The translations under genes and the position numbers were made by a program. The notes under the pieces were generated by a model. The model did not search any database, was not told the DNA's origin, and was given only the letters and a program-made list of their open reading frames with translations. From assembly GCF_030551255.1 (NCBI RefSeq), contig NZ_CP130630.1, positions 1,736,001-1,800,000 of the forward strand: a stretch of 64,000 nucleotides of DNA, given 5' to 3'. The stretch comes from Streptomyces sp. NL15-2K (GTDB lineage Bacteria > Actinomycetota > Actinomycetes > Streptomycetales > Streptomycetaceae). This document shows, piece after piece, positions 38,147 to 54,236 of this stretch. The stretch's first letter is position 1, and each line of letters starts with the position of its first letter.

Positions 38147-38743
38147 ATGGCCGCAAGACGCGGTGTTCCACGGGAGGCGCTGGCGGGTCCATGGCGCCCG
38201 CTGCTCGTCCAGCCTCCGCTGGCGGAGTTGCTCGGTGACCCCCTGGTGGACGCGGCGCTGGTGGAGATGGGCCGGGTCCTTCCGCCGCGCATCGCGCTGC
38301 ATTCGCTGCGGACGTTCCTGCTGGCCGACGCCGGCGCGCGGGTGCGGGGGATCGGCTACGACCGGACCGGTCTGCTCGCCGCCGCGGTGTTCCACGACAC
38401 CGGGCTGACGGGGGGCGCGGTGCGGGTGCGGGGTGGATTCCCCTGCCGTTCGGCCGAGTTGCTCGACCGCTTCCTGGCCGGACACGGGGTGGACGACGGG
38501 CGGCGCGGGACGCTGACCCGCGCGGTCCGCGAGCACATGCGCCCCGTCCCCGCGCGGGACGCCGGCCCCGAGGCGCGGCTGCTGCACTTCGGGGCCTGGC
38601 TGGACGTCACCGGTCGTGGTTTCCGCCAAGTCCCCGGCGAGCGGCGGCGGTTGACCGAGCTCGCGCCCACGCCCTGGTTCGCCGTCTCGTTCTCCGCGCG
38701 GGTGGCCGCCTGCGCGGTGCGGCGGGCGCTGCCGGCCCGATGA
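38147..38743 (+). CDS. HD-domain protein
   Basis: A 198-residue protein with the HD metal-binding signature: H52 in LHSLRTF, H83-D84 in AVFHDTGL and a later H130 in AVREHM. Such proteins are phosphohydrolases, hydratases (cyanamide hydratase-like) or, less often, mixed-valent diiron oxygenases. It is the first gene of the plus-strand arm next to the flavoenzyme, 51 bp away. Its location in a cluster that otherwise lacks a diiron oxygenase makes the oxygenase possibility worth noting, but it is inference only. Confidence 0.75.
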   Translation: MAARRGVPREALAGPWRPLLVQPPLAELLGDPLVDAALVEMGRVLPPRIALHSLRTFLLADAGARVRGIGYDRTGLLAAAVFHDTGLTGGAVRVRGGFPCRSAELLDRFLAGHGVDDGRRGTLTRAVREHMRPVPARDAGPEARLLHFGAWLDVTGRGFRQVPGERRRLTELAPTPWFAVSFSARVAACAVRRALPAR

Positions 38744-38794
38744 CCACCCGCACGCCCGGCCACCCGTTCCTCCCGTCCTGAAAGGACCGCAGAC

Positions 38795-40585
38795 ATGCAA
38801 GACGACCAGCGTGTTTTCGATGTCGCCATCGTCGGAGGCGGCATCGGCGGGACGATGCTGGGGGCGATCCTCGCGCGCCACGGCGTGCGCGTGCTGCTTC
38901 TGGAAGGAAGCGGTCACCCCCGGTTCGCCATCGGAGAGTCCACCGTTCCGGAGACCACCTTCGGCCTCAGGGTCCTGGCCCGCCGCTACGACGTCCCGGA
39001 GATCGAGCACCTGGCGACCAACGGGGCGCTGCGCCGCCACGTGTCGTCGAACTGCGGAATCAAGCGGAACTTCAGCTTCGTCTATCACCGCGAGGGGGAG
39101 CCCACCCGCGCCGCGGAATGCACCCAGTACCCGACCTGGGGCCCGCCGCTCGGGCCCGACTCGCACTACCTCCGGCAGGACGTGGACGCCTACATGTTCC
39201 ACGTCGCCGTCTCGTACGGCGCGACCGCCCACACCCACACCGTCGTCGACGACGTGAAGTTCGACGAGGACGGCGTCACGCTCGTCACCCGGGAACGGGG
39301 TACCTTCCAGGCGTCGTACCTGGTCGACGCCGGAGGGATGCGGGCCGTCCTGCCCGAACGCCTGGGGCTGAGGCAGGAACCGCCGTACCGCACGCGGTCG
39401 CGCACCATCTTCACCCACATGGTGAACGTCAAGCCCTTCGACACCGTGGCGCCCCCGCGCGAACAGCACAAGATGCCGAGCCCGTTCAGCCAGGGCACCC
39501 TGCACCACCTCTTCCAGGGCGGCTGGTTCTGGGTGATCCCGTTCGACAACCACACGTCGAGCACCAGCGAGCTGTGCAGCGTCGGCGTCAATCTCGACCT
39601 CGACCGGTATCCGCGCCCCGAGGGGGTCTCCGCGGAGGAGGAGTTCTGGAACCATGTACGGCGGTTCCCCAGCGTCGCCCGGCAGTTCGAGCGGGCGCGG
39701 TCGGTACGGCCGTACGTCTCGACCGACCGCACCCAGTTCTCCTCGCGGTCGGTGGTCGGCGACCGGTGGTGTCTGCTGCCGCACGCCGGCGAGTTCATCG
39801 ACCCGCTGTTCTCCAGCGGACTCGCGGTCACCGTGATGGCGCTCAACGCGCTGAGCCACCGGCTGATCGACGCGGTGCGGCAGGACGACTTCGACACCGC
39901 CCGGTTCTCCTACCTGGAGCACTGGATCAAGCGGATGTTCCGGTTCTACGACGACCTGGTGTCCTGCAGCTATCTGTCCTTCGACGACTTCGAGTTGTGG
40001 AACGCCTGGAACCGCGTGTGGACCATCACCACGCTCTACGGGACCAACGCCCAGAACCAGGCCGCCGTGACCTTCGAGAAGACCCACGATCCGACCTGCT
40101 TCGACGCGCTGGAGACGCCTCCCTACCGGGGTCTTCAGGGCGTCGACAACCCGTGGGTCGAGCGGCTCTTCGACCAGGCGCGCGACGCCGTACTGGCGTA
40201 CGGCGCCGGTGAACTGACGAAAGATCAGGCGATCGCCCGCATCTACGACCTGCTGCGCGAGAGCGAGCTGTGCCCGGCGGTGTGGGGGACCCTCGACCCC
40301 GAAGACCGCTGCCCCGCCGGGGTGTTCACCCTCTGGCCGCTGATGAAGATCCTGCTGTGGGGCAAGTTCCGCTCACCACGGCACGTCCGGGGCGCCTACT
40401 TCACCGGCGGTGCGCGGCTCGTGGGCAAGGAGGCGGTGCAGGCCTACGGCACCGAGCTGCGGCGCAGCACGTCCCAGGTGCACCAGACCGTGCGGGACAT
40501 GTGGTTCAACTGGAACCGCGACTGGGCGCGGCGGCCGGCGCCCCGCCCGGAGAATCCCGGCGGGGAGCTTCATATGCAGAAATGA
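38795..40585 (+). CDS. FAD-dependent monooxygenase/halogenase-like flavoprotein
   Basis: A 596-residue flavoprotein of the tryptophan-halogenase superfamily. FAD loop VGGGIGG at 13-19, halogenase-type motif GWFWVIP at 243-249 and a second FAD motif GEFIDPLFSSGLAVT. K90 in GIKRNFSF could correspond to the catalytic lysine of flavin-dependent halogenases. The C-terminal 200 residues are a helical extension as in the CmlS/CndH variants. It would need reduced flavin, which the reductase at 47967-48638 could supply. It may halogenate, hydroxylate or oxidise; motif presence alone does not decide. Confidence 0.8.
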   Translation: MQDDQRVFDVAIVGGGIGGTMLGAILARHGVRVLLLEGSGHPRFAIGESTVPETTFGLRVLARRYDVPEIEHLATNGALRRHVSSNCGIKRNFSFVYHREGEPTRAAECTQYPTWGPPLGPDSHYLRQDVDAYMFHVAVSYGATAHTHTVVDDVKFDEDGVTLVTRERGTFQASYLVDAGGMRAVLPERLGLRQEPPYRTRSRTIFTHMVNVKPFDTVAPPREQHKMPSPFSQGTLHHLFQGGWFWVIPFDNHTSSTSELCSVGVNLDLDRYPRPEGVSAEEEFWNHVRRFPSVARQFERARSVRPYVSTDRTQFSSRSVVGDRWCLLPHAGEFIDPLFSSGLAVTVMALNALSHRLIDAVRQDDFDTARFSYLEHWIKRMFRFYDDLVSCSYLSFDDFELWNAWNRVWTITTLYGTNAQNQAAVTFEKTHDPTCFDALETPPYRGLQGVDNPWVERLFDQARDAVLAYGAGELTKDQAIARIYDLLRESELCPAVWGTLDPEDRCPAGVFTLWPLMKILLWGKFRSPRHVRGAYFTGGARLVGKEAVQAYGTELRRSTSQVHQTVRDMWFNWNRDWARRPAPRPENPGGELHMQK

Positions 40586-40734
40586 CAACGAAAGGAAAAA
40601 CATTCCTGCGCCATTCATAATGGAAAAGTCGCGGTTTGCCGCCGCAGCACCTCGGGTAAGAAAACCATACGGCCGAGAGATAAATTCCGGTCCGGTCCCC
40701 TTGCTTATCCGAGAGACAACGGGCTGCTATCCAT

Positions 40735-41265
40735 ATGGCGCAACATTCCACCTGCCCATCGCCCGCCCCATGCTCCTGGGAAGAGATTTTCCAGCACCAG
40801 GACCGCCTGATGCGGCTGGTTCGCCGAAGACTCCCGAGTTATCAGGACGCCGAGGACTGCGTCCAGGAAACGATGGCACGCGCGGCCTCGCACGCCGCGC
40901 TGGACAGAAACCGGCTCGGCCCCTTCCTCACCTCCGTGGCACTCCGCCTGTGCATCGACTACTACCGCGACATGGAGCGCCGTAGCCGCCTCTTACAGCG
41001 CGCGGCGCTCCTGGACGATCCCGGGACCACCGAGGAGGACGTCTGTGACGAGGACTTCGGCCGGTGGCTCATGGACCAGGTCCAACTCCTGCGCGGCCGG
41101 GAACAGGAAGTGATACTCGCCCGCGTCGCCGGGATTTCCACCGCGGAATTCGCCCGCATAAACAACATCTCCATCAAGGCGGCCGAGGCCGCTTTCACCA
41201 GAGGTCGGGCGCGCCTGAAAACGGTTTGCGCAAAAGCCATGGAAGGCCGCACGGGACAGCCGTAA
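40735..41265 (+). CDS. ECF-type sigma-70 factor with a TTA codon
   Basis: A 176-residue sigma factor: region 2 DAEDCVQETMARA, and region 4 LLRGREQEVILARVAGISTAEFA with a KAAEAAFTRGRARL recognition-helix region. Codon 87 (40993-40995) is TTA, read by the bldA tRNA that appears late in development. The gene follows a 149-bp AT-richer gap containing CCATT-CAT-AATGG. No anti-sigma gene is adjacent. It is a plausible activator of the surrounding cluster. Confidence 0.85.
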   Translation: MAQHSTCPSPAPCSWEEIFQHQDRLMRLVRRRLPSYQDAEDCVQETMARAASHAALDRNRLGPFLTSVALRLCIDYYRDMERRSRLLQRAALLDDPGTTEEDVCDEDFGRWLMDQVQLLRGREQEVILARVAGISTAEFARINNISIKAAEAAFTRGRARLKTVCAKAMEGRTGQP

Positions 41266-41310
41266 TCGGCGTCCGCACACATCACGCACTCACCGAAAGG
41301 AAACCGGTTC

Positions 41311-41934
41311 ATGGCCAGCAACAAGAACATGCAGGATATCCTCAAGGACCTCGTGGGCAATATGGCCGACAGCAGCAAGGAGGCCTTCGACGACATTCTC
41401 AACCGGCCGGAGAAGTCGACGTCGTCCGGCTCCGGGAATCCCGTCGAGACGCTGGCCGGTCTGCCCGCGAACGCGCTCGGCGCCCTCGCCGGGGTGGTCA
41501 ATCCGGCGGCGGCGCTCGCGGGCGCCGCGAACCCGCTGGCGGCGCTCACCGGCGCCGCGGGCGCGGCCAATCCGCTGGCCGCACTCACCGGAGCGGCGGG
41601 GGCAGTGAATCCGCTCGCCGCGCTCACCGGCGCGGCTGGCGCCGCCAATCCACTGGCCGCACTCTCGGGAGCGGCCGGGGCGGCCAACCCGCTGGCGGCT
41701 CTCGGTGGTGCCACCGCCCCGCTCGCCGCGCTCGGCGGTGCCGCGAGCGCGGCCGGCGGGCTCGGCCAACTGGCCGGGGGCGTCGGCCAGTTGGCCGGAG
41801 GGGTCGGGCATGCCGCGGAGGGTGTGGGTGATCTGCTGTCGCTGCCGGCGCAGCTCACCCAGTTGCTGGAGCTGCTCCCGAAGCTCATCCAGGCGCTGCA
41901 GAGCCAGGCCGGCAACCAGTCCGCCGCCGGCTGA
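41311..41934 (+). CDS. Ala/Gly-rich repeat protein of unknown function
   Basis: A 207-residue low-complexity protein. An N-terminal charged helix (about 1-35: KNMQDILKDLVGNMADSSKE) is followed by 13-residue repeats of the form L-T-G-A-A-G-A-A-N-P-L-A-A between about 60 and 135, then a Gly/Val-rich repeat (QLAGGVGQLAGGVG) and a leucine-rich amphipathic C-terminus (TQLLELLPKLIQALQSQ). No cysteines, aromatics or catalytic motifs. It has a good AAAGGAAAC site before the ATG. It could be a phasin- or lipid-body-coating protein or a scaffold; I do not recognise a family. Confidence 0.75.
   Translation: MASNKNMQDILKDLVGNMADSSKEAFDDILNRPEKSTSSGSGNPVETLAGLPANALGALAGVVNPAAALAGAANPLAALTGAAGAANPLAALTGAAGAVNPLAALTGAAGAANPLAALSGAAGAANPLAALGGATAPLAALGGAASAAGGLGQLAGGVGQLAGGVGHAAEGVGDLLSLPAQLTQLLELLPKLIQALQSQAGNQSAAG
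41542..41697 (+). repeat. 39-bp tandem repeat, four full units
   Basis: Units at 41542, 41581, 41620 and 41659 each encode A-L-T/S-G-A-A-G-A-A/V-N-P-L-A. They differ mainly at third codon positions, so the repeat is maintained at the protein level and is not a very recent expansion. Partial units flank both sides. Confidence 0.9.
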
Positions 41935-42007
41935 CCGACCGTGCGTCCGTCCCGCTCGACCTGTTCCGCCGCGCGCATCCGCCGGCGCCCCCGGACCCGG
42001 ATCCCGG

Positions 42008-42049
42008 CCTGGGGCCTGGGGCCTGGGGCCTGGGGCCTGGGGCCTGGGG
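42008..42049 (+). repeat. Heptanucleotide microsatellite CCTGGGG x6
   Basis: Six perfect CCTGGGG units plus a partial seventh in the non-coding gap after the repeat-protein gene; the last unit runs into the left arm of the MITE-like element. A 7-bp period outside coding sequence is free to vary in number. Confidence 0.9.
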
Positions 42050-42292: not shown

Positions 42293-42309
42293 GAGGAGGC
42301 TCACACACG

Positions 42310-43866
42310 ATGGCGTCCGTCGTCGGCGATCGGTTGCGGCTCGTGGTCAAGGTCCTGGGAAGCCTCGTCGCCGACGAGGTGGGCCAGGCCACACGGCTGC
42401 GCAGACACTCGAAACGGGGCGAACCACCGCACCCGGCGGAGGCCGCCGAGGCCTCCGCCGGGGCCGAACGCAGGCGGGCCAAGGCGGTGCGCCACGCGCT
42501 GGAGAGCCTCGGCCCCTTCTATGTGAAGCTGGGTCAGATCCTGTCCACCCGGCCCGACATGGTGCCCCAGTCCATCAGGGACGAACTGCAGAACCTGCAC
42601 GACCAGGTCGACGTCCAGCCCTTCTCGGTCTTCGAGCCCGTGCTGGCGGGCGACCTCGGGCCGGACTGGAAGCTGCGGTTCGACGACATCGACACCGTCG
42701 CCCCGCTCGGGGCGGCCTCCCTCGCCCAGGTCTACCGGGTGACGCTGCCCGGCGGCCGGCCGGCCGTGGTCAAGATCCAGCGGCCCGGCATCCGCGAGGG
42801 GGTGCTCGCGGACATGGCGCTGATGCGCCGGGCCTCCCGGATCGTGGCCCGCGTGGCACCCCGGTTCAACGAGGTCATCGACATCGAGGCGATGCTCGGC
42901 TCCGTCTTCGACGCCATGGAACCGGAGCTGGACTTCACCGGCGAGGCCCGCAACATGGACGAGGCCCGGGAGAACATCCGGCCCTTCCGTACACTGGAAG
43001 TGCCCCGCGTGCTGTACGCCGGTCCGCGGGTCCTGGTCCAGTCGCTGGCTGGGGGCACGTCGGTACGGCACATCGACCGCGCCCACTTCACCGACGACGA
43101 GCGCATCGAGATCGGCAAGGACCTGCTGCGGTTCATGTACCACGGGTACTTCGTCCACCGCATGTTCCACGCCGATCCGCACGCGGGCAACGTCTTCGCG
43201 GTCCCCGGCGGACCCGCGACGCTGATCGACTGGGGCATGGTCGGCCGTCTCGACCGCCGTACCAGTCTCCAACTGCTGCCCCTTTTCATGACGTTGGCGC
43301 AGAACGACGGAGCCGGCCTGGCGCACCACTGGGCGGAGATGGGGCGGATGACGGCGTGGTCCAACATGCCGGCGTTCGCCGCGGACATGGCCGCGTTCGT
43401 GCCGAAGGTCTCCCATCTGTCCCTGGAGGACATGAACTTCGGCGTCTCGCTCACCACCGTGCTGGCGAAGGCGACCAAGCGGGGCATCGGGTCACCGCCG
43501 GCGGTCTCCCTGCTCGGCAAGTCGTTCGCCAACCTCGACGGCTCCGTGCGCTGCCTGGCGCCGGAGATCACGCTGCCGGAGGTGTTCCAGGGCGAGGTGC
43601 CGAAGATCCTCTTCGCGCTGGGCCGCGAGTTCCTCGGCCGCCATCAGTTCGCCCGCAACTCCATGGAGTTGATGCTCGCCGCCGTCACCAGCCCCGAGCA
43701 GCTGCGCGGGGTCCTCGGCGACCTGGCCAACCGCCAGTTCGCCCTCAACGTCCACGAGCCCCGCACACCCACCGCGATGGGCGGCCAGCGGCCCGTCCGC
43801 CCCTCCGGCGGCCTGCTGGCCCTCGGTGCGCTGGCGTACCTGCTCGGCCGTCGCAGCTCCGGCTGA
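42310..43866 (+). CDS. UbiB/AarF (ABC1, ADCK-like) family atypical kinase
   Basis: A 518-residue protein with the family hallmarks: KxGQ motif K73-L-G-Q76 (YVKLGQILSTRPD), Ala-rich nucleotide loop GAASLAQV (133-140), VVKIQRPG with the invariant lysine, and HADPHAGN catalytic loop (286-293) followed by LIDWGMVG. The C-terminus ends in a hydrophobic, probably membrane-anchoring segment (about 499-512). The family is linked to quinone and lipid biosynthesis as an ATPase rather than a protein kinase. Its position in this cluster suggests handling of a hydrophobic intermediate. Confidence 0.9.
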   Translation: MASVVGDRLRLVVKVLGSLVADEVGQATRLRRHSKRGEPPHPAEAAEASAGAERRRAKAVRHALESLGPFYVKLGQILSTRPDMVPQSIRDELQNLHDQVDVQPFSVFEPVLAGDLGPDWKLRFDDIDTVAPLGAASLAQVYRVTLPGGRPAVVKIQRPGIREGVLADMALMRRASRIVARVAPRFNEVIDIEAMLGSVFDAMEPELDFTGEARNMDEARENIRPFRTLEVPRVLYAGPRVLVQSLAGGTSVRHIDRAHFTDDERIEIGKDLLRFMYHGYFVHRMFHADPHAGNVFAVPGGPATLIDWGMVGRLDRRTSLQLLPLFMTLAQNDGAGLAHHWAEMGRMTAWSNMPAFAADMAAFVPKVSHLSLEDMNFGVSLTTVLAKATKRGIGSPPAVSLLGKSFANLDGSVRCLAPEITLPEVFQGEVPKILFALGREFLGRHQFARNSMELMLAAVTSPEQLRGVLGDLANRQFALNVHEPRTPTAMGGQRPVRPSGGLLALGALAYLLGRRSSG

Positions 43867-43905: not shown

Positions 43906-44781
43906 ATGCCCGACATCGCACGCCCGAAGTCACCACCCGCACCGGACAGCTCGCTGCCGGACGGCATGTCGCAGGTCGCGCTCTGGACGGCGGCCGCGCA
44001 CGCCGCGGAGTGCCACCGGGACTCGCCCTACGTCCTCGACCCGTGGGCGGCCGACTTCCTCCACGCGGCCGGCTTCACGTCGGGCCCGCCGGGCGACGGC
44101 CCGCTGCAACGGCTGCTGCCCGACTGGGCGGTGGTGCGCACCCGCTTCTTCGACGAGCACCTCAGTGACGCGGCCCGCTCCGGCTGCCGCCAGGTCGTGC
44201 TGCTCGGCGCCGGGCTCGACACCCGTGCCTTCCGGCTGGAGTGGCCGACGGGGGTGCATGTCTTCGAGGTCGAGGATCCCGCCGTACTCGCCTTCAAGGA
44301 CCACGTGCTGGACTGGAGCCCGCCCTCCTGCGGACGCCGTAGCGTCGTCGGCGTCGACCCGGCGACCGGTGCCTGGGGCGACGAACTGCTCGCCGCGGGA
44401 TTCGACCCCCGGCGGCCCACCGCCTGGCTCTGCGAGACGCTCCTCTACCACCTCCAGCCGCACACGGTGGAGTCCGTCGTCGGCACGATGACCGAACTCT
44501 CCGCCCCGGGCAGCACCTTCGGCGCCGAGTGCGTGAACGCCGAGGCCGCTTCCTCGTCGTTCGTGGCGCCCTTCCTGGAGGCCCTGTCCGCGACCGGCAT
44601 CGCCTGGCACTGGCAGCTCGCCGAGCCGCAACGCTGGTGGGCGGAGCACGGCTGGGACGCGCGGGTGGCCGACCTGTTCACCCTGCCGTACGTCGTCCAG
44701 CGTCTGTCCCCCTACCTGCCGCTGCTCACCGAGGCCGCCGCGAAGTGCGTGTTCCTGACCACGGGGACGCTGCGCGGCTGA
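43906..44781 (+). CDS. Class I SAM-dependent methyltransferase, LCMT/PPM-like
   Basis: A 291-residue methyltransferase with motif VLLGAGLDTRAFRLEWP (about 97-113), characteristic of the leucine-carboxyl-methyltransferase/TIGR00027 group, and an acidic residue in FEVEDPAV. These enzymes often methylate carboxylates to esters. It starts 39 bp after the UbiB-like gene, with GGAGG seven bases before the ATG. A methyl-ester-forming step would fit azodyrecin-like products, which is inference. Confidence 0.85.
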   Translation: MPDIARPKSPPAPDSSLPDGMSQVALWTAAAHAAECHRDSPYVLDPWAADFLHAAGFTSGPPGDGPLQRLLPDWAVVRTRFFDEHLSDAARSGCRQVVLLGAGLDTRAFRLEWPTGVHVFEVEDPAVLAFKDHVLDWSPPSCGRRSVVGVDPATGAWGDELLAAGFDPRRPTAWLCETLLYHLQPHTVESVVGTMTELSAPGSTFGAECVNAEAASSSFVAPFLEALSATGIAWHWQLAEPQRWWAEHGWDARVADLFTLPYVVQRLSPYLPLLTEAAAKCVFLTTGTLRG

Positions 44782-44840: not shown

Positions 44841-46085
44841 CTACCCCCGCTCCAGTTCCAGCAGCGCTGCGAGCCACAGGTCGGGCAGTTCGTCGGCGGC
44901 CGTCAGGGCCTCGTCGTGGACCACGGTCAGGCAGGCCACGTCGTGCTGGCTCGTCAGTGTCGTCAGGCACCGGATCCCGGCCGCGGGGGCCGTGAAGACG
45001 ACGGAGCGGCGGGCCGCGCTCCCCTGGTGGACGAGGGCCTGGCCGAAGTTCACGCCGCTGGCCGGGGCGGCGACGACCGCGCCGTTGACCATCCGCGTGC
45101 CCACCCGGGCTCCGATCGCCCGCGGAGTGGCGGCGAGCAGCAGGCTGAGGGCGTCGCGCTGCCGGCTCGCGCGCAGCCGGGCTGTGCTGGCCGCGACGCG
45201 GGCCAGGGCCGCCTGGGGTGACGCCTCGTCACACGGCAGCAGCACCCGGGCGACGACCATACGGTTGCCGGGCGCGCACTCCTCCCCCGGTGCCCGTACG
45301 GACATCGGAACCGCCACCGGCAGCGGCGGATGGAGCGAACCGGTGGCCTTCAGGTGCCAGGCGCGCACGGCGTGGGAGAGAGCGGCGAGGTAGACGTCGT
45401 TCACCGTCCCGCCGTGGGCGCGGCCGATCGCCCGCAACCTGGCCAACGGCGCGTCCGCATGGCATACGGCTGTCCTCCCGCTGCCGGGTACGTCGAAGGC
45501 CGGCTTGGCCGTCGGGGCGCGGAAGGAGGCCACCACGTCGGCTACGGCACCGGCCAGGCCCTGGGCGGTCGGCCGGGCGCGATGGTGCGGTGCGGGTCCT
45601 CCCGCGGGGTGGTCGTCGAGAAGGGCGCGGGCGGTGTGGGCGGCGCCGACGCCGTCCTGGAAGGTGTGGTCGGTGCGGTAGCACAGGGTGTGGTCGCCGG
45701 CCGGGCCGTGGACCAGCCACACGTCCCAGGGCGGCCGCTCGGCGGGGCTCATGGGCCGCGTCAGCATCAGCCGCCCGGCTCCCGAACCGTCGGCGTCGTC
45801 CTCGGACAGCCACGCCTCGTGCACGTGCTGCTCGACCGCGATCCGGTCGACAAGCAGGAACACCCTGCGGTCGGGCGCGATGCGGTAGCGCAACGACGGG
45901 ATGCGGTGGGCACGTTCGGCCACGCGCGCGCGTACGGCGTCCAGGGTCGGCGCCGGGCCGCCGAACCGGAACGCGAACACGACCGGCAATGGCCTGCCGC
46001 GCATGGCCAGGTGATAGGCGACGTCCGGGGTTCCCATGGGCAGGGACGGCGGCAGGCTGCCGTCGGTGCCGAGGTGGGGGCGCAT
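44841..46085 (-). CDS. WS/DGAT-like acyltransferase
   Basis: A 414-residue protein of the wax-ester-synthase/diacylglycerol-acyltransferase (condensation-like) family. The active-site motif normally H-H-x3-D-G reads DHTFQDG (139-145): the first histidine is aspartate, the second and the D-G are kept. A second conserved region is TVNDVYLAALSHAVRAW (about 215-231), and VNFGQALVHQG lies near 350. It may acylate an alcohol or amine of the pathway. ATG at 46085 has AGGAAGG upstream. It is the last gene of the minus-strand operon, separated from the oxidase gene by a 562-bp repeat-filled gap. Confidence 0.82.
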   Translation of the reverse strand: MRPHLGTDGSLPPSLPMGTPDVAYHLAMRGRPLPVVFAFRFGGPAPTLDAVRARVAERAHRIPSLRYRIAPDRRVFLLVDRIAVEQHVHEAWLSEDDADGSGAGRLMLTRPMSPAERPPWDVWLVHGPAGDHTLCYRTDHTFQDGVGAAHTARALLDDHPAGGPAPHHRARPTAQGLAGAVADVVASFRAPTAKPAFDVPGSGRTAVCHADAPLARLRAIGRAHGGTVNDVYLAALSHAVRAWHLKATGSLHPPLPVAVPMSVRAPGEECAPGNRMVVARVLLPCDEASPQAALARVAASTARLRASRQRDALSLLLAATPRAIGARVGTRMVNGAVVAAPASGVNFGQALVHQGSAARRSVVFTAPAAGIRCLTTLTSQHDVACLTVVHDEALTAADELPDLWLAALLELERG

Positions 46086-46647
46086 GGTGGAACCTTCCTG
46101 TCGGGTGTGAGGGATCGCGGCGGGGTGGGTCGATGGCGGGCTGGGCGATGAGGCGGCCTGGGCCATGCAGTCGGCCCGGGCGACGGGGCCGGGCTGGGCG
46201 ACAGGACCGGGCTGAGCAACGGGCCAGGCTGACCAACGGGGCCAGAGCGGGCCGCGGGCCGAAGGGCCGACCGAGCCCAGGCAGCCGAGGCAGGCCGTGC
46301 GGAGCGGCCGGACGGGCGTGGGCAGCTGAGGCACACCGACCCCAACCCCCGACCGGCCCCAGACAGCCACGCCACACCGATCCGAACCACCCGACCGACT
46401 CCAGACAGCCACGCCACACCGACCCCAACCACCCAACCGACTCCAGACAGCCACGCCACACCGACCCCAACCACCCAACCGACTCCAGACAGCCACGCCA
46501 CACCGACCCCAACCACCCAACCGACTCCAGACAGCCACGCCACACCGACCCCAACCACCCAACCGACTCCGGGCCGACGCGGACACGGGCCCGAGCCGGC
46601 GCACCGGCGCACCGGCGCACCGGCGCCCGAGCGGACCCCGTCGCCCG
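46086..46647. other. 562-bp repeat-filled gap inside the operon
   Basis: No gene is supported. It contains degenerate 17-18-bp CCGGGCTGGGCGACA-like repeats near 46160-46240, the 42-bp minisatellite (46324-46574) and three GGCGCACC 9-bp repeats near 46600-46625. Because the periods are multiples of three and stop codons are absent, long spurious frames run through it on both strands. Confidence 0.7.
46324..46574. repeat. 42-bp minisatellite, about six units
   Basis: Units begin at 46407, 46449, 46491 and 46533 and are nearly perfect (the fourth diverges at its end); 46365-46406 is a divergent copy and 46324-46364 a more degenerate one. It lies between the oxidase and the WS/DGAT-like gene. 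Identical central units imply recent expansion. Confidence 0.9.
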
Positions 46648-47970
46648 TCAGCACGAACGGCGCGTGGAGCGGCCGAGCGCCTCCACATACCCCCGGATCA
46701 GGCGGCGGGTCGGCCCCCGGACGGGCAGCCGTGGGGCGCTCGAACGGTGCCAGGGCAGTGGGTCCCCGGGTTCCGGCTCCCCCATCAGGGCTGCGGCGAC
46801 GTACGCGCCGTGCGCCACGGACATCGCCAGGCCGTGCCCGCAGCAGCCGCCGATGTACCAGACGTCGGGGAAGCCGTGGACCGGCCCGACCACCGGCAGG
46901 TCGTCGAGCGTCATGCCGATACGGCCCGACCAGCGGTGGGTGACGCGTACGTCGGACAGGTCGGGGTGCAGGGAACGCAGCCAGCGGTCCAGCCAGGTCC
47001 AGGCCCGCTCGCGGAGGGCCTGGAGCCCGGGCGCGTCGAGTCCGGCGGGGGCGGTCACGGTTCCGCCGCCCGCCACCAGTCCCCCGTCCGGGAGCAGCCG
47101 GAAGTACGGCGCCATCGGTGCCGCGTCCACGACGGCGTACCCCGCGCGCCCGCCCAGGGCCTCGTACGCCGCCCGGCGGACGGGCGCGGTGGCCACGGCG
47201 TACACCTCCAGCGGCAGGATCGTGCCGACCGGCAGGCCCACCCCTTGCGCGGCGGAGTTGACGGCCAGTACCGCCTGCCCGGCGTAGAGCCTGCCGTGCG
47301 GGAAGACCAGTTCGGGTCCGACCAGGTCCCCGGTGTGTACGGCCCGCAGGGCGCTGTTCCCGTAGAAGCGCACGCCCTTGGCGGCGCAGGCGCGGGCGAG
47401 GGCGCCTGTCAGTGCGGCCGGGTCCAGGGTGGCCGCGGTGCGGTGGAGAAGCCCGGCCTTGTAGGGCACGCCGACCCGGGTGCGGACGGCGGCCCCGGAC
47501 AGGACCGGCACGTCCAGGCCGAGCGCCCGGTAGGCCTTCGCCTGTCGGGACAGGGCCGTCAGGTGCGCGGTCGAGCGCGTCGCCATGATCTGCTCGCCGC
47601 GCCGCAGCCCGCAGCCCACGTCGAGGCCGGCGCACAGTTCGAGGACGCTTTCGACGGCCCGCACGCTCGCCAGGTGCATCCGGCGTGCGGTGCCCGGGCC
47701 GAAGCGGCGTACCGCGCGGTCGATGGGCGGGCCGGCCCGGGGGCCCAGCAGGCCGGTGCCCCGGCCGCTGGCCCCGGCGGCCGGCCGCTCGGCGTCGACC
47801 ACGGCGATGTCGAGGCCGGGGGCGCGTTCCGCGAGGTGGTAGGCGCAGGCGAGGCCGGCGAGACCAGCTCCGACCACGGCCACGTCCGCGGTGACCACGC
47901 CGTGCAGCGGGGGCTGCGACGGCAACTCCGCCGGCTCCCAGGCGGGGGATCCGGCCGGTGACCGGGTCAT
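46648..47970 (-). CDS. FAD-dependent amine/amino-acid oxidase (DadA/glycine-oxidase-like)
   Basis: A 440-residue DAO-fold flavoprotein with FAD loop VAVVGAGLAGLACAYHLAE (about 28-46), acidic residue in VVDAERPAAGASGRGTG and C-terminal FAD segment DVWYIGGCCGHGLAMS. The family oxidises C-N bonds of amines and amino acids. In a pathway with an N-N bond it could oxidise a hydrazine to an azo or hydrazone, which is inference. ATG start overlaps the flavin reductase stop by four bases (ATGA). Confidence 0.85.
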   Translation of the reverse strand: MTRSPAGSPAWEPAELPSQPPLHGVVTADVAVVGAGLAGLACAYHLAERAPGLDIAVVDAERPAAGASGRGTGLLGPRAGPPIDRAVRRFGPGTARRMHLASVRAVESVLELCAGLDVGCGLRRGEQIMATRSTAHLTALSRQAKAYRALGLDVPVLSGAAVRTRVGVPYKAGLLHRTAATLDPAALTGALARACAAKGVRFYGNSALRAVHTGDLVGPELVFPHGRLYAGQAVLAVNSAAQGVGLPVGTILPLEVYAVATAPVRRAAYEALGGRAGYAVVDAAPMAPYFRLLPDGGLVAGGGTVTAPAGLDAPGLQALRERAWTWLDRWLRSLHPDLSDVRVTHRWSGRIGMTLDDLPVVGPVHGFPDVWYIGGCCGHGLAMSVAHGAYVAAALMGEPEPGDPLPWHRSSAPRLPVRGPTRRLIRGYVEALGRSTRRSC

Positions 47971-48638
47971 CGGACGCCGTCCGGCGCAGGCGCCGGCACC
48001 GGCTCGGGCACAGGCGCGGACTCGGGCACAGGCACGGGCCCGGACTCGCGCACAGGCACAGGCCCGGACTCGCGCACAGGCACAGGCCCGGACTCGTCGA
48101 GAGTCCGGAACCGTCGGTCGTGCCACAGCAGCGGGCGCCCGCCGCCCACGTGTACGGCCGCCACCCGTCCGACGACGAGGTGGTGGTCGCCGTAGCGGCG
48201 TACGTCCTCCACCAGGCACACCGACCAGGCGAGCGCTCCGCCGAGCACCGGGACGCCGAGTACCTGCCGGGTGTCGGTACCGGCGAAGCGCTGGAGCGCG
48301 GTCGTCGTCGGGGACGCGAACCGGGCGGCCAGGCCGTGCTGTTCCTCCCGGAGCAGATGGACCGCGAAGACGCCGTGCGCGCGGACCGCGGTGAGCGTGC
48401 GGGAGCCGTCGCGCAGGCAGGCCAGGAGCAGCGGCGGCCGGGCCGACAGGGAGGTGACCGCGGAGACCGTCATGCCGAGCGGGCCGTCCGCGCCCCGGGC
48501 CGTCACGACGGTCACGCCGGCGGCCAGCTTGGCGTACAGCCCCAGGCAGCGGGCGGCTCCGGGGCCCGGCTCGTCGCCCAGGGGGTCCGCGGTCGGCGGG
48601 GACGTGGGCTCAGCCGCGAGCCGCGGCGGCGCACTCAT
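47967..48638 (-). CDS. Flavin reductase (FMN-binding split-barrel)
   Basis: A 223-residue flavin reductase-like protein: AAGVTVVTARGADGPLGMTV followed by SAVTSLSARPPLLLACL is the FMN-binding split-barrel signature of HpaC/VlmR/ActVB-type enzymes. It supplies reduced flavin to two-component monooxygenases, here most likely the acyl-CoA-dehydrogenase-like enzyme and the halogenase-like enzyme. The C-terminal about 45 residues are Pro/Glu/Val repeats (ESGPVPVR, three copies) of 24-bp DNA units, absent from typical relatives. It overlaps the SRPBCC gene by 29 bp. Confidence 0.88.
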   Translation of the reverse strand: MSAPPRLAAEPTSPPTADPLGDEPGPGAARCLGLYAKLAAGVTVVTARGADGPLGMTVSAVTSLSARPPLLLACLRDGSRTLTAVRAHGVFAVHLLREEQHGLAARFASPTTTALQRFAGTDTRQVLGVPVLGGALAWSVCLVEDVRRYGDHHLVVGRVAAVHVGGGRPLLWHDRRFRTLDESGPVPVRESGPVPVRESGPVPVPESAPVPEPVPAPAPDGVR

Positions 48639-49077
48639 CGATCACCTCCGCGCCCACCAGGCCGACGAGGATGCGGGCGATGTTGGTCCGCAGTGTGGAC
48701 TCGGCCACCGGGTCGAGGATCTCCGCGAGGGTCGGGATGCCGAGGTCGAACGAGGCGGTGAAGACGATCAGCGTGCCGCCGTCGCGCGGTTCGCAGCGCC
48801 AGCTTCCCTCGAAGGTCTGGAAGTCGCCGCTGAGCTGCTCGAAGGTCAGGGAGAGCGTCTCCGGCGAGAACAGGTCGCGTTCCCGCCAGCGCATGAGCCC
48901 GCCCCGGAACGTCACGGTCCACTCCGACACCAGCGAGCCGTCGGCCAGCGGGTCGTCCACGCGGACCTCGCGCACGGTGTCGGTGAGTTCGGGATAGCGG
49001 CGGAAGTCGGTGATGCGTCGGTAGGCGTCGGCCGGTTCCAGGCCGCCGGCGAGCGCGTGCAGGACCACGTGGCGCAT
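48610..49077 (-). CDS. SRPBCC-family (polyketide cyclase/COQ10-like) protein
   Basis: A 155-residue Bet v1-fold protein with the pattern DAYRRITDFRRYPELTDTVR, WTVTFRGGLMRWRERD and IPTLAEILDPVAESTLR. Relatives are aromatase/cyclases or hydrophobic-ligand carriers. A clear GGAAAGGAAAC site precedes the ATG. In this operon it could bind a lipid-like intermediate. Confidence 0.82.
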   Translation of the reverse strand: MRHVVLHALAGGLEPADAYRRITDFRRYPELTDTVREVRVDDPLADGSLVSEWTVTFRGGLMRWRERDLFSPETLSLTFEQLSGDFQTFEGSWRCEPRDGGTLIVFTASFDLGIPTLAEILDPVAESTLRTNIARILVGLVGAEVIDECAAAARG

Positions 49078-49113: not shown

Positions 49114-50397
49114 TCAGCCGGTCATGCGAAGGGCTGTGGTGTGCAGGGCCTCGGCGAGCGTGATGAAGAACCGGTCGAGCGCCTCGTCGTCCACCACCGC
49201 GGGCGGGGTCAGCCGCAGCACCCGGGTGGAGTTGAGGGAGTGGTTGACGAGCACGTTCCGGGCGATGAGCTCCAGCAGCAGTTCGCCGACCGCCTGTTCC
49301 TCGGTGAATTCGATCCCGATCAGCAGCCCGCGGCCGCGCACGTCGTGGACCAGCACCTCCTGGTACGGCGCGCACACGGCCCGCACGCCGGCGAGGATGC
49401 GCGCGCCGAGCGTCGCCGCCCGCGCCACGGTGTCCTCCCGTTCCATCGTCTCGACGGTGGCGAGGGCGGCGGCGCAGGCGATCGGGGAGGCGCCGAAGGT
49501 GGAGGTGTGCAGGTAGGGGTCGCGGCTGAAGGGGGCGTACGCCTGCTCGGTGGCGGCCATCGCGGCGATCGGCACCACTCCCCCGCTGAGCCCCTTGCCC
49601 ACCAGCAGGATGTCCGGGCGGACGCCTTCCGCGTCCACTCCCCACCAGGTGCCCAGCCGGCCCATCCCGGTCTGGATCTCGTCCACGACGAGCAGCGCGC
49701 CGAACTCCTCGCACAACGCGGCCACTTCACGGAGGTAGCCGGGCTCCGGGATGCGCACCCCGCCCTCGCCCTGGACCGGCTCGATGATGACGCAGGCCCG
49801 GTCGCGGCGGGCGGCCAGCGCCTGCTTCAGCCCGGCCGGGTCGCCGTAGTTGACCTGTGTGGTGTCGGGGAGCAAGGGCTGGAACGGCCGCTGGTAGGTG
49901 GCGTTGGCGGTGACGCTCAGCGCGCCCAGGGTCTTGCCGTGGAAGCCCTTGCGTGTGGTGATGACCGCGTTGCGTCCGTGGGCGCGGGCGAGTTTCAGGG
50001 CGGCTTCGGTCGCCTCGGCGCCGGAGTTGACGAAGTGGACGTAGTCGAGGCCCGGTGGGGTGTGCGCGGCGAGCGCCTGGGCGGCTCGGGCGGCGACCGG
50101 TTCGAGGAAGACGCGGCTGGCGAGCGGATGGGTGTCGATCTGGCGGTGCACGGCCTCGACGACGGCCGGGTGCCGGTGGCCGAGGAGGAAGACGCCGTAG
50201 CCGCCGAAGTCGAGGAAGCGGCGGCCGTCGTCGGTGTGGATCCAGGGTCCCTCGGAGCGCACTTCGGCCATGCCGCCCATGACCCGGCCCATGACCGCTC
50301 GGCCGGAGCCGATGTGCTTCAGGTACAGCTCGACGAGTTCCGTGCCGCCGGGCAGGGGTGCGGCCAGGTTGACGGGTGCGGGGGGCGAGATCGTCAT
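49114..50397 (-). CDS. Class III PLP aminotransferase (putrescine/ornithine type)
   Basis: A 427-residue aminotransferase with PLP lysine K268 in LLVGKGLSGGVVP, cofactor segment LLVVDEIQTGMGR (235-247) and FVNSGAEATEAALKLAR. The close resemblance to putrescine/ornithine aminotransferases implies an aldehyde/terminal amine substrate. The start overlaps the stop of the acyl reductase-like gene by four bases, suggesting that the two act in sequence: acyl thioester to aldehyde to alkylamine. Confidence 0.9.
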   Translation of the reverse strand: MTISPPAPVNLAAPLPGGTELVELYLKHIGSGRAVMGRVMGGMAEVRSEGPWIHTDDGRRFLDFGGYGVFLLGHRHPAVVEAVHRQIDTHPLASRVFLEPVAARAAQALAAHTPPGLDYVHFVNSGAEATEAALKLARAHGRNAVITTRKGFHGKTLGALSVTANATYQRPFQPLLPDTTQVNYGDPAGLKQALAARRDRACVIIEPVQGEGGVRIPEPGYLREVAALCEEFGALLVVDEIQTGMGRLGTWWGVDAEGVRPDILLVGKGLSGGVVPIAAMAATEQAYAPFSRDPYLHTSTFGASPIACAAALATVETMEREDTVARAATLGARILAGVRAVCAPYQEVLVHDVRGRGLLIGIEFTEEQAVGELLLELIARNVLVNHSLNSTRVLRLTPPAVVDDEALDRFFITLAEALHTTALRMTG

Positions 50398-51494
50398 GAG
50401 GCCAGCTCCTTCGGGGTCGTGGCGGCGGGCCGGGCCGCGCGGTGTCGCCTGAGCAGTCCGGCCCGGCCTTCGGCCCAGCTCTCCAGGTTCCGTACGAGGG
50501 CGGCGCGGATGTCGGTGTGGGTCAGGGGCGGGCCGCAGTCGGGGTCGCCGAGGGAGGAGGCGAAGGGCAGCTCGCGCTGGAAGACCAGGAGCAGTTCCGC
50601 GTAGTGCTGGAGGCGCTGGCGTACCGAGGCGGGCATCGAGGTGCCCTCCAGCATGGGCAGCAGCAGCCGGTGCACCGCTTCGACCGGGATGAGCCGGGGC
50701 CGGTGCGGTTCGGGCAGGCCGTGGCGGACGGCGAACTCCGCGCAGGTGTCGGAGATCTCCCGCAGCAGCGGCGCCTCCTTGCCTGCGGTCAGCCAGTATT
50801 CGCCGTCGCGCACGCCGCCCCGGATCAGGTCGCCGACGGCGCGGGTGACGAAGTCCTGCGGGACCATGTCGATCCGGGCCTCGGGGGCGCCGGGCAGCAC
50901 CGGCACCTGCCCGAGCACCATCGAGCCGAGCGTCTTGGTCAGGCCCTGCTGTCCGGCGATCCGCCCGGTGACGGAGTCGCCCATCACGACGGAGGGGCGC
51001 ACGAGGGCGCCGGGCAGGCCGGCCTCGCGCACCATCTGTTCGGCCGCGGTCTTGGAGGCGAGGTAGGCGGCGGCGCCCGGGAAGCGCCGCTTGTCCTCGG
51101 CGGCCGGGATGCTCGCCACGAACGCGGTGCTCACCAGGTAGAGGGGTGCGTCGGCCCGGGCTGCCAGGTCGAGCATGACCCGGGTGCCGGAGGTGTTGGT
51201 CCGCACGATGTCCTCGGGCGGGGTGCGCCAGTTGGTCTCGGCGGCCGAGTGCAGTACGACGTCCACCTCGTCGGCGAGTCGCTGCCAGGCCTCTGGAGCC
51301 AGGCCCAGGCGGGGCGAGAGGAGGTCGCCCTGGAGCTCGCGCACCCGGGGGTCGCTCAGGGGCCTGTTCCGGCGCAGGCAGACCAGGTCGAAGTCGGGTG
51401 ACAGCTCGTCGATCAGGGCCCGCCCGAGCACCCCGGAGCCGCCGGTGAGCAGCAGGGTGGGGCGATCGGTGGGACTCGGGATGTGTGGCGGCAT
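50394..51494 (-). CDS. NAD(P)-dependent thioester/fatty-acyl reductase-like SDR
   Basis: A 366-residue extended SDR with cofactor loop TGGSGVLGR (17-25), Y144-x3-K148 (YLASK) and the substrate-domain pattern of the NAD_binding_4 (fatty-acyl-CoA or carrier-protein thioester reductase) group: HSAAETNWRTPPEDIVRTNT. It would release an acyl chain as an aldehyde for the aminotransferase. The stand-alone form, without adenylation or carrier domains, points to an acyl-CoA or ACP substrate made elsewhere. Confidence 0.82.
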   Translation of the reverse strand: MPPHIPSPTDRPTLLLTGGSGVLGRALIDELSPDFDLVCLRRNRPLSDPRVRELQGDLLSPRLGLAPEAWQRLADEVDVVLHSAAETNWRTPPEDIVRTNTSGTRVMLDLAARADAPLYLVSTAFVASIPAAEDKRRFPGAAAYLASKTAAEQMVREAGLPGALVRPSVVMGDSVTGRIAGQQGLTKTLGSMVLGQVPVLPGAPEARIDMVPQDFVTRAVGDLIRGGVRDGEYWLTAGKEAPLLREISDTCAEFAVRHGLPEPHRPRLIPVEAVHRLLLPMLEGTSMPASVRQRLQHYAELLLVFQRELPFASSLGDPDCGPPLTHTDIRAALVRNLESWAEGRAGLLRRHRAARPAATTPKELAS

Positions 51495-51510
51495 GGGTGT
51501 GTTCCCCCAA

Positions 51511-51592
51511 CGGGACTCGGCTGCCGGGATATCAGTGGGCGTACAACAGCTGGGCTTCGGTCGGCCTACGGTGCCTCGGGACTCGGCTGCCG
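51511..51592. repeat. 16-bp direct repeat between operon genes
   Basis: CGGGACTCGGCTGCCG occurs at 51511-51526 and 51577-51592 in the 114-bp gap before the SDR gene. It is the only sizeable non-coding gap in the front part of the operon and may hold an internal promoter or be repeat debris. Confidence 0.6.
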
Positions 51593-51608
51593 TACGACGA
51601 CCGGGCTG

Positions 51609-52799
51609 TCAGGCGATGGTCAGTGGCTGGTCGGCGAGGTAGCCGGAGAGCGGGCCGGTCATCCGCGGCCGGGACGGCGGGTGCAGGGAGAGGCCGTTGG
51701 CGCAGGCGGCCAGGTGGCCGACCTCGTCGGACGTCATGAAGTTGAGCCCGCCGAGGAGTTCGACCGCGCGCGGGACGACCCGGGCGAGGGTGTCCTGGAC
51801 GCCGTAGCGCGTGCAGAGCGACTGGACGAGCGCGGACTCGCCGAGGTCGCCTGCGTCCACGCGGCGGGCGATGCCCTCGGCGGCGGCCATGGCGGCCTCG
51901 GTGTCGACGTACAGCCGTACGCGCTCGTGCTCGGGGATCCGGTCGTTGAGCAGCACGCGTTCCACCAGGGCGCTCGCGGCACCGAGGTAGCTGCCCGTCA
52001 TCAGCAGCTGGAACCAGATCAGCCCGGCCGTCTGGAGCTCGTCGAGGCTGTGCCCGGCGGGGGCGGCGGTGCGCAGCAGGAGTTCCGGCGGTACCAGGAC
52101 GTCGGTGAGGGTGACCTGTTCGCTCTCCGCTCCGGCGAGGAAGGCGCTGGACCAGAAGCCGCTGACGCTCAGGCCCTCGCTCTCGGCGGGCACCAGCGCC
52201 ACCGCGAGCTCGTCGCCCTGCCCGTCCTCGCGGGGGATCATCACGCTGGCGGTGAGCACGTCCATGGAGCGGGCCAGGCTGCACGGGCGTTTGACGCCGT
52301 TGAGCCGTACGCCGTCCTCGGTGACCGTGGCGGTCATCGACGGCTCCAGGATGCCGGCGCCGCTGCGGCCCTCCGCGAAGCCGGAGGCGATGACGCGGTT
52401 GGTGGAGGCCACGCCCTCGATCAGCATCCATTCCAGGCCGTCGGCCTGGCCGCCGAGGTGGCCGAGGCCGACCAGGGTGGCCATGGAGAAGTGGTGCATG
52501 GTGGTCGCCACGGCCAGGGACGGCGAGCGGCTGCCGATGGCCCGCTGCACGCGCAGCGCGTCCAGCGCGCTCGCTCCCCGGCCCTGGTGGGATTCGGGCA
52601 CCAGGAGCCCCGGCCCGCCGCTGTCCCGGAACAGCCGGATGCCGGGGCTGCCGGGCCGCTCCAGCTCCATCAGCGGGGTTTCCCGGAGGGCCGGGTCGAG
52701 GTCCGGCAGCAGCTTGGCCAGCGTGGTGCGTTCACGTTCGAGGAATCTCATGGACGTGCGGTCCTCCAGGGTGCGATGGGGTACGCGCTGGTCGGTCAT
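51609..52799 (-). CDS. Acyl-CoA-dehydrogenase-like flavoenzyme (possible amine N-hydroxylase)
   Basis: A 396-residue ACAD-fold protein with GVKRPCSLARSMDVLTASVM (mid-domain beta region), LGAASALVERVL helices and a typical C-terminal four-helix bundle. ACAD-fold members include the flavin-dependent isobutylamine N-hydroxylase VlmH, which works with a separate flavin reductase like the one encoded here. The coupled ATG at 52799 overlaps the upstream stop; a second ATG at 52751 has GGAGG 11 bases ahead and would give 380 residues. True dehydrogenase activity remains the alternative. Confidence 0.8.
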   Translation of the reverse strand: MTDQRVPHRTLEDRTSMRFLERERTTLAKLLPDLDPALRETPLMELERPGSPGIRLFRDSGGPGLLVPESHQGRGASALDALRVQRAIGSRSPSLAVATTMHHFSMATLVGLGHLGGQADGLEWMLIEGVASTNRVIASGFAEGRSGAGILEPSMTATVTEDGVRLNGVKRPCSLARSMDVLTASVMIPREDGQGDELAVALVPAESEGLSVSGFWSSAFLAGAESEQVTLTDVLVPPELLLRTAAPAGHSLDELQTAGLIWFQLLMTGSYLGAASALVERVLLNDRIPEHERVRLYVDTEAAMAAAEGIARRVDAGDLGESALVQSLCTRYGVQDTLARVVPRAVELLGGLNFMTSDEVGHLAACANGLSLHPPSRPRMTGPLSGYLADQPLTIA

Positions 52800-53758
52800 A
52801 CGGCGTTGGTGGCGCGCAGCAGCCGCCATACGGCGCCGATGCGGGGCCTGCCGAGGAAGGCGATGTACTCCGGGAGGACCGCGTGCGGGGCCCATTTCTC
52901 CTTGTATTCGAGCTGGGAGGCCGCGGGGTAGATCGCCTGGCCGCGGTCCGCCAGCAGCCGGGCGAACCGGGTGAACGTGCGGCTGGCGTCCGGCAGTTCG
53001 TGTTGGTCGTCGAGCCCGGTGAAGGGGGTGAACCCGAAGTGCAGCCAGTCGGCGCCGTCGGCGACGAACCGTTCCATGGCGGTGGCGTTGAGCGCCTCCA
53101 TCACCCCGGGCGGGGCGTCGGGCAGCCGCCGGCTCAGGTCGTGCAGCCAGCCGGGGCGGCTGCCGTAGACCGGCGAGTAGGTGATGTAGCCGACGGCCGT
53201 GCCGTCGATGCGGCCGACGAACAGCCGTCGGTGGCGTTGCAGCGGCCCGGTCCGCTGGCCGACGAGGAAGCGGAGCTCCTTGACGTGCCGGCCCTTGTCC
53301 CGCAGCCAGGTGTCGTCGAGCCGGTCCAGCTCGGAGCAGTCGTCGTCGTGCTGGACCTCGGCCACCTCCAGACCCGCCCGCCGGGCCCTCGAGATCTTGT
53401 TCCGCAGCCGTACGAAGCGGGAGCCGCGCAGGGTGAACCGGGACAGGTCGACGGCGTACGAGGCTCCGATCTGGTTGACCGTGAAGCCGTGCGCGGCGTA
53501 CAACTCGGCGTCCGCGCGCTGGAGTTGCACGGCGACCAGGCGGGGTCCGGTCTCCTTCACGAAGGAGTCCAGCAGACGCGCCCGGTGTTCGGGGGCGGTG
53601 AAGGGCCCGCCGAACTGGAAGACGTAACGTCCTGATCGGCGATAGGCGCAGGCACCGTCGAACCGGTCGTCGCGGAAGTATTCGTTGCCGCTGTTCAGTG
53701 CGAGAAATGAGCTGGGGTTGTCGCTGTGCTCGGCGAGCGTGTCAAGCACGGACGGCAT
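52796..53758 (-). CDS. DUF2156 (lysylphosphatidylglycerol-synthase C-terminal) aminoacyl-transferase-like protein
   Basis: A 320-residue soluble protein of two GNAT-like folds, as in the C-terminal domain of MprF. Recognisable stretches are FLALNSGNEYFRDDRF at the start, RLRNKISRARRAGLEV (about 117-132) and DWLHFGFTPFTGL (about 232-244). The family includes VlmA, which moves serine from seryl-tRNA onto a hydroxylamine. No membrane domain is present, so phosphatidylglycerol modification is unlikely. It overlaps the membrane-protein gene by 17 bp and the next by four. Confidence 0.8.
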   Translation of the reverse strand: MPSVLDTLAEHSDNPSSFLALNSGNEYFRDDRFDGACAYRRSGRYVFQFGGPFTAPEHRARLLDSFVKETGPRLVAVQLQRADAELYAAHGFTVNQIGASYAVDLSRFTLRGSRFVRLRNKISRARRAGLEVAEVQHDDDCSELDRLDDTWLRDKGRHVKELRFLVGQRTGPLQRHRRLFVGRIDGTAVGYITYSPVYGSRPGWLHDLSRRLPDAPPGVMEALNATAMERFVADGADWLHFGFTPFTGLDDQHELPDASRTFTRFARLLADRGQAIYPAASQLEYKEKWAPHAVLPEYIAFLGRPRIGAVWRLLRATNAV

Positions 53759-54236
53759 GCGTGCCCTCCAGGGAAGTCTGTGGTCCGTCGGCGGTCCTGG
53801 AGCGATATTTCTGCTCGAACTCCCGGTAGGCCGGGTTCGTTTCCGGTTCGAAGGTGACTCCGAAGGGTTTCAGGGAATTCCCGAAGAGCGCCCGGTCGCC
53901 CATGAGATGGATGGGAAGGGCGAGCAGGGCCCATTCCGGCTCGACGAACAGCGCCCACGCCCCGGCCAGCACACCGGCCGTGATCAGGCTGTGCATCACG
54001 TTGTAGGCCACGTAGTAGCCGCGTGCGACGCGCCGGTCGGGGCTGCGCCGGAAGGCGAGCGCCCCGGGAAGGTAGCCGATGACATCGATCACCGCGAAGA
54101 ACGCGACGAAGACGCCCCACCGAATCTCGGAAAGATGCTGGAAGGCGAGCACGAGCGAAACGACCAGAATGGCCAGCCATTCGAGTCGGACGAGCACGAA
54201 GGTGGTTTGCGTCTCGAATCGGTTCTTGGCGTCCAC
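53742..54236 (-). CDS. Small integral membrane protein, candidate VlmO-like N-N bond-forming enzyme
   Basis: A 164-residue protein with about four predicted membrane segments (approximately 14-32, 40-60, 74-96 and 100-115) and a soluble C-terminal tail of 45 residues. Polar and charged residues inside or beside the helices (RLEW, DVIGYLP, YYVAYNVMHS, HLMGDRALFGNS) suggest an enzyme rather than a simple anchor; histidines could bind metal. It is the first gene of the operon, GTG start with GGAG upstream. I link it to VlmO by size, membrane nature and gene company, not by alignment. Confidence 0.65.
   Translation of the reverse strand: MDAKNRFETQTTFVLVRLEWLAILVVSLVLAFQHLSEIRWGVFVAFFAVIDVIGYLPGALAFRRSPDRRVARGYYVAYNVMHSLITAGVLAGAWALFVEPEWALLALPIHLMGDRALFGNSLKPFGVTFEPETNPAYREFEQKYRSRTADGPQTSLEGTHAVRA

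Follow-up and report, generated by a model that had tools for sequence, protein, structure and literature searches.

A predicted VlmO-type nitrogen-nitrogen bond lipid cluster in Streptomyces sp. NL15-2K with a DAO-family oxidase in place of VlmB

What kind of lipid would be made by a Streptomyces locus that resembles the valanimycin and azodyrecin clusters? The locus lies in a 64,000-nucleotide stretch of the genome of Streptomyces sp. NL15-2K (the window), and the sequence-only reading had proposed that it makes an alkyl azoxy or hydrazine lipid, possibly methyl-esterified, from a minus-strand operon (54236->44841) accompanied by extra genes on a plus arm. The genes of both arms were found where that reading had placed them (Table 1). 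Those it had listed as operon members are indeed there, but the list was incomplete, as the SRPBCC, DAO and WS genes had been omitted. The four overlapping gene joints it described were borne out (O/A, 17 nt; TR/AT, 4 nt; SRPBCC/R, 29 nt; R/DAO, 4 nt), and a fifth, of 4 nt between A and H, depends on H starting at 52799 and not at 52751.

Table 1. Genes of the two-armed unit, in positions of the window
Gene	Position	Strand	Assignment and evidence
O	53742..54236	-	VlmO-like (DUF4260-like), 164 aa; proposed hydrazine (N-N) synthase; weak PF14079, below cut-off
A	52796..53758	-	VlmA-like LPG_synthase_C (DUF2156), candidate aminoacyl-tRNA transferase, 320 aa; PF09924, E 9e-63
H	51609..52799	-	ACAD-fold flavoenzyme, candidate VlmH-like amine N-hydroxylase; Acyl-CoA_dh_M below cut-off; start 52799 or 52751
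TR	50394..51494	-	Thioester-reductase-like SDR; PF07993, plus TIGR01746 below cut-off; predicted fatty acyl to aldehyde
AT	49114..50397	-	Class III aminotransferase; PF00202, E 1e-92; predicted aldehyde to alkylamine
SRPBCC	48610..49077	-	Polyketide-cyclase-like protein; PF03364
R	47967..48638	-	Flavin reductase, VlmR-like; PF01613
DAO	46648..47970	-	FAD oxidase with the glycine-oxidase fold, 440 aa; occurs in loci that lack VlmB
WS	44841..46085	-	WS/DGAT-like acyltransferase; PF03007, plus TIGR02946 below cut-off
MT	43906..44781	+	PF04072/TIGR00027 methyltransferase, Ady1-like
ABC1	42310..43866	+	ABC1/UbiB-like kinase-fold protein; PF03109; kept in 8/8 relatives
pPro	41311..41934	+	Ala/Gly-rich protein with 39-nt repeats; kept in 8/8 relatives
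sigma	40735..41265	+	Sigma-70 family (ECF-type) sigma factor, candidate regulator; PF04542; kept in 8/8 relatives
Hal	38795..40585	+	Flavin-dependent halogenase-like, 596 aa; tetracycline 7-halogenase 458 bits, PltM 343 bits
p198	38147..38743	+	Very weak HD-domain resemblance, E 0.17; kept in 8/8 relatives

The cluster is not a chance occurrence, since 760 of 916 candidate proteins match the membrane protein O at E<=1e-3, 83 genomes of the genus, out of 392, contain the O gene, and a comparison with the loci of relatives shows the same gene order again. In the nearest locus (L001, Streptomyces sp. SA15) O is 92% identical, and A, H, TR, AT, SRPBCC and R are 94-98% identical. Positions 38147-54236 form one conserved 16-kb biosynthetic unit with two arms. 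Decayed forms, in which only pieces of O (and A) lie between both conserved flanks, occur in L067/L133 (one genome) and in L181; the unit can therefore be lost whole. Two repeat tracts lie within it, a 42-bp unit repeated 5.7 times (95% match) in the gap that separates DAO from WS (46332-46570) and the 39-bp repeats inside pPro (41510-41703). The conserved flank outside the unit holds a sigma factor with a C-terminal SnoaL-like domain (34432-35424). A sigma-70 promoter scan found no promoter.

VlmO forms the hydrazine in valanimycin biosynthesis, and its residues D51, H82, H110 and D114 are reported to be essential (PMC11705231; here and below, the accessible part of that text). The O protein of the window carries all four at the same residue numbers, and they are invariant in an alignment of 35 rows, window included, drawn from loci with a VlmB-family gene (VlmB-type) as well as from loci with the DAO oxidase (DAO-type). 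A Foldseek search with a VlmO-like model (pLDDT 76.9) found nothing, the best E value being 3.4. We propose that O is a VlmO-type N-N-forming membrane protein, i.e., a predicted hydrazine synthase. The nearest PDB sequences to A are of the LpiA/MprF type and those to H are DszC; A is found together with O across loci. By family-level matches plus linkage, the window holds a VlmA-like and VlmH-like pair. H is present in 46 of 51 DAO-type and 83 of 84 VlmB-type loci, and both A and H in 45 of 51 and 60 of 84, respectively (distinct O genes, within the stretch examined). With O and its four essential residues, A, the ACAD-fold H, R, and TR with AT, the assignment to an N-N-bond lipid cluster of the valanimycin/azodyrecin kind, which had been put forward from the sequence alone, is well supported at the level of gene content.

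The azoxy product fared differently. In valanimycin biosynthesis VlmB acts after VlmO and takes the hydrazine to the azoxy compound (PMC11705231). We identified the VlmB family as a family of ~320-370 residues near O in 30 of 80 named loci; a search with the family profile gave a full-length match of 518 bits to the PDB entry 'Putative VlmB homolog', while only a weak match to Pfam AurF was seen, in 2 of 3 members. A search with the VlmB model gave no match in the window and none in the genome of the window. The same model found VlmB in all four control genomes with a VlmB-type locus (G086, G040, G109 and G125) and in none of the three genomes with only a DAO-type locus (that of the window, G118 and G207). 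The positive controls and the 518-bit match make the absence of VlmB firmer, not the chemistry. Neither p198 nor any other unassigned gene of the window could be taken for VlmB, as none matched. Because VlmB is absent from window and genome, where a DAO-family oxidase is present instead, the azoxy reading is not supported.

The two enzymes exclude each other. Among 149 distinct O genes, from 166 loci with the window included, 84 have VlmB only, 51 have DAO only, none has both and 14 have neither. The 80 named loci, which were chosen for likeness to the window, comprise 41 with DAO, 30 with VlmB, none with both and 9 with neither; an even sample of the genus (85 loci) gave 21 with DAO, rising to 25 after follow-up, 56 with VlmB, none with both and 8 with neither. 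Five of the 14 loci with neither enzyme were later traced to a DAO by means of longer stretches and protein lists, and their classification as 'neither' was dropped: in L048/L119 the gene lies just past the first stretch (630 bits), in L126 it is cut by the contig end (65 bits), in L129 the genome holds it on another contig (548 bits), and protein listings place one in the strains of L047 and L049, for L047 on a contig equal in length to that of the locus and for L049 by strain name. The remaining nine were set aside: L006/L106, L007, L010 and L021 lie on short contigs, L072 is cut, L138 is a second locus of which only part is present, and L067/L133, L179 and L181 are remnants or fragments. 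L006/L106 belongs to genome G001, which holds DAO on another contig. Among the 51 DAO-type loci, L001 scores 85 bits for a gene at the end of its contig, and L122 scores 321 bits where its stretch stops, a value that rises to 628 bits on extension. Across 246 genomes, DAO at >=384 bits was found in 19, all of which hold O, and O itself was found in 52; the next-best DAO scored 263 bits and the remainder lower. Single genomes may hold one locus of each type, as seen in G086 (L109 and L117) and in Streptomyces violens (L008 and L045).

The exclusion is strong in counts, not in independent events. Fisher's test gives a p of 2e-27 but ignores relatedness, and was set aside. On a quick O+A tree of 120 loci, with SH-aLRT support only and with long branches that include L062 and L071, the fewest DAO/VlmB changes is six. 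Two of the swaps, each confined to one locus, depend on DAOs that are distant (L062, 321 bits; L071, 369 bits). Relatedness weakens the count because only four independent pairs fall on supported branches, all in the expected direction but too few for significance (sign test, p 0.125). The DAO/VlmB swap nevertheless recurs while the upstream genes stay. An azoxy lipid would still require an oxygen from another source: the flavoenzyme could help by taking the hydrazine to the azo compound, to which H/R or another enzyme would add the oxygen. The remaining azoxy-cluster functions are present, the methyltransferase is Ady1-like, and a survey from 2022 takes a VlmA/VlmH pair as the mark of a potential azoxy producer (PMC9379638; here and below, the accessible part of that text). 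VlmB, however, is missing here and was never found with DAO in any locus, and we consider an azoxy product improbable.

DAO has fold matches to glycine oxidase, L-proline dehydrogenase, iminodiacetate oxidase, opine dehydrogenase and MnmC, which oxidise amino acids or secondary amines beside the nitrogen. FAD oxidases of the DAO superfamily act on hydrazines in other pathways (PMC11705231). The analogy to the hydrazine-cleaving oxidases (Spb39, Apy10 and Tri27) is limited to the superfamily, because the DAO matches, found in 8 of 20 MetRS-like loci, score only 26-51 bits, compared with >=200 bits for ordinary paralogues; a MetRS-like neighbour beside a DAO was confirmed only for L188 and L191. 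On these distant scores, the close relationship of DAO to Spb39 or Apy10 that had first been assumed was scaled down to the superfamily analogy. The overlap of the R and DAO genes in the window and a 576-aa fusion of a DAO oxidase with a flavin reductase domain (Pfam; P0214, on a 2,717-bp contig) both count in favour of the reading set out below. DAO could act elsewhere in the pathway, serving a step other than that of the N-N intermediate, in which case the product would be a bare hydrazine or something further from it. Relatives of its fold do oxidise many amines, but DAO exchanges places with VlmB, an enzyme that acts after VlmO, while the upstream genes stay, and we regard such a role as very doubtful.

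We return to the reading that we favour and hold to be probable: the pathway leads to a hydrazine lipid by VlmO-type chemistry, DAO stands in for VlmB, and the product would be a hydrazone, azo or hydrazine compound. Each reaction in this strain, the amino acid used and the oxidation state of the product are predictions from sequence. TR would reduce a fatty acyl thioester to the aldehyde, which AT would aminate to the alkylamine, and H with R would hydroxylate the amine nitrogen. A may then transfer an aminoacyl group from a charged tRNA to the hydroxylamine oxygen, and O would rearrange the ester to an alkyl hydrazine carrying the amino acid. At this point the route would branch from that to azoxy compounds, with DAO predicted to carry out a two-electron oxidation of the hydrazine beside the carbon of the amino acid. 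As the most likely product we expect an alpha-hydrazono (or azo) acid, retained as such and converted to its methyl ester by MT; in the main alternative, hydrolysis would give a terminal alkylhydrazine. The product may also be acylated by WS and halogenated by Hal.

TR is found in 41 of 51 DAO-type versus 11 of 84 VlmB-type loci, WS in 32 versus none, and MT in 32 versus 7, two of the latter being weak matches (L030, 56 bits; L040, 70 bits); these counts are lower bounds, as stretches of ~10 kb on each side miss genes further out. SRPBCC is present in 49 of 51 DAO-type and 70 of 84 VlmB-type loci. The motif of WS reads DHTFQDG at the position where WS/DGAT-like acyltransferases usually have HHxxxDG. 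Five DAO-type loci (L034, L035, L037, L038 and L039) have O, A, SRPBCC, R and DAO and no H, AT or TR within ~10 kb; another N-hydroxylase or amine source may serve in these.

The methyltransferase bears on the fate of the amino-acid carboxylate. Ady1 methylates the carboxylic acid of azodyrecin, i.e., the amino-acid carboxylate (PMC9379638), and the PF04072 methyltransferase linked to this VlmO-type cluster is Ady1-like by family and context. It is 55-56% identical to the methyltransferases near O in five loci that we call azodyrecin-like by gene content (L170, L172 and L175-L177), whereas its sole paralogue in its own genome is 40% identical. Across 246 genomes, the 19 matches at E<=1e-50 comprise 14 in the subtype of the window, four adjoining O in azodyrecin-like loci (55-57% identity) and one elsewhere (50%). 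The methyl ester that had been suggested from the sequence is accordingly a likely feature. By analogy, the product probably keeps its amino-acid carboxylate, because MT is Ady1-like and Ady1 methylates a carboxylate; this would in turn disfavour cleavage of the C(alpha)-N bond.

Such cleavage is the basis of the alkylhydrazide alternative, which was our favoured product until MT proved Ady1-like and which we now think rather unlikely. DAO would here cleave the hydrazine at C(alpha)-N like Apy10, and WS would N-acylate the free long-chain alkylhydrazine to an alkylhydrazide of the hydrazidomycin/geralcin type. Apy10 and Spb39 do cleave hydrazine C-N bonds (PMC11705231), the proteins that DAO resembles in fold include amine oxidases that cleave, such as MnmC and iminodiacetate oxidase, and WS is confined to DAO-type loci; hydrazidomycin D is an N-acetyl, N'-fatty-acyl, N'-alkenyl hydrazide (PMC6344404, accessible part). 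The carboxylate that Ady1 targets (PMC9379638), however, would be lost on cleavage, and the linked MT resembles those of the azodyrecin-like loci. Streptomyces atratus, named as a hydrazidomycin species in the available part of PMC11212599, is also absent among the 120 of 129 DAO relatives listed, many of them without a species name.

The plus arm had been suggested to define a new variant, and its linkage bears this out, Hal, MT and the other genes occurring in fixed order with the subtype. Its membership was doubted at one stage, as most of the first loci ended before reaching it; the gene order in relatives and the distribution of Hal favoured membership. The region beyond WS was examined in eight of the 17 other genomes of the genus sample that have the subtype; all eight show MT, ABC1, pPro, sigma, Hal and p198 after WS, arranged as in the window. 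Hal at >=85% identity occurs in 18 of 392 genomes, window's included, and these are exactly the 18 with the O-DAO subtype; in one of them (G001) the unit is split over contigs and Hal has one internal stop. The next-best Hal in the genus sample is 46% identical; Hal forms a cluster-specific clade. The protein has GGWFWVIP from residue 242 and a lysine at K90, and its lysine and WxWxIP motif align with those of tetracycline 7-halogenase and PltM. A WxWxIP motif with an aligned lysine is a feature of flavin-dependent halogenases, and Hal is a candidate enzyme of this kind.

Most DAO-type loci bear the label Streptomyces; one each is labelled Kitasatospora, Catellatospora and Rhodococcus, and two are labelled Paraburkholderia. 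In the latter (L051 and L073) a VlmO-like gene lies with DAO, A and H. A VlmO-like gene of 38% identity was also seen on a Pseudoalteromonas plasmid.

Compared with known systems, the unit shares O, A, H, R, AT, TR, SRPBCC and the PF04072 methyltransferase with the azodyrecin-like loci; where these carry VlmB, the unit carries DAO and WS, and it has the halogenase arm in addition. With the valanimycin (vlm) cluster it has in common the VlmO/VlmA/VlmH/VlmR-like set and the four VlmO residues, but it lacks VlmB, would obtain its alkylamine through TR/AT and has no seryl-tRNA synthetase among the called genes of the block. The hydrazinoacetic acid (Spb39) and actinopyridazinone (Apy10) pathways likewise use a DAO-superfamily FAD oxidase after hydrazine formation (PMC11705231), although there the N-N bond comes from a MetRS/cupin enzyme. 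A survey of VlmA/VlmH pairs called VlmB/O/R highly conserved and noted halogenase-like and PF04072 genes near some VlmA groups (PMC9379638); the subtype is probably already inside that survey. In the literature covered (the accessible parts of PMC9379638 and PMC11705231, together with search listings), we found neither a description of another oxidase standing in for VlmB nor a gene cluster for alkylhydrazides. antiSMASH 8 has an azoxy rule, according to the available part of its description. The Synteruptor paper on S. ambofaciens was rejected as relevant, since its accessible part concerns another cluster.

Enzymes that form N-N bonds are a current topic. The cluster would bring a halogenase into N-N chemistry, and alkylhydrazide genes may be reached by way of it. 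We see an even chance that a second VlmO branch is common in Streptomyces, in which a glycine-oxidase-fold flavoenzyme stands in for the diiron oxygenase and the pathways end in alpha-hydrazono, azo or free alkylhydrazine lipids, acylated, methyl-esterified and halogenated in the subtype described here. These lipids would form an undescribed N-N class, from clusters so far counted as azoxy. Should the choice between VlmB and DAO determine how far the product is oxidised, a sizeable share of VlmO loci, 21 of the 85 in the even sample of the genus (25 after follow-up), would make something other than an azoxy compound, and the swap would provide a simple genomic rule by which VlmO loci can be sorted.
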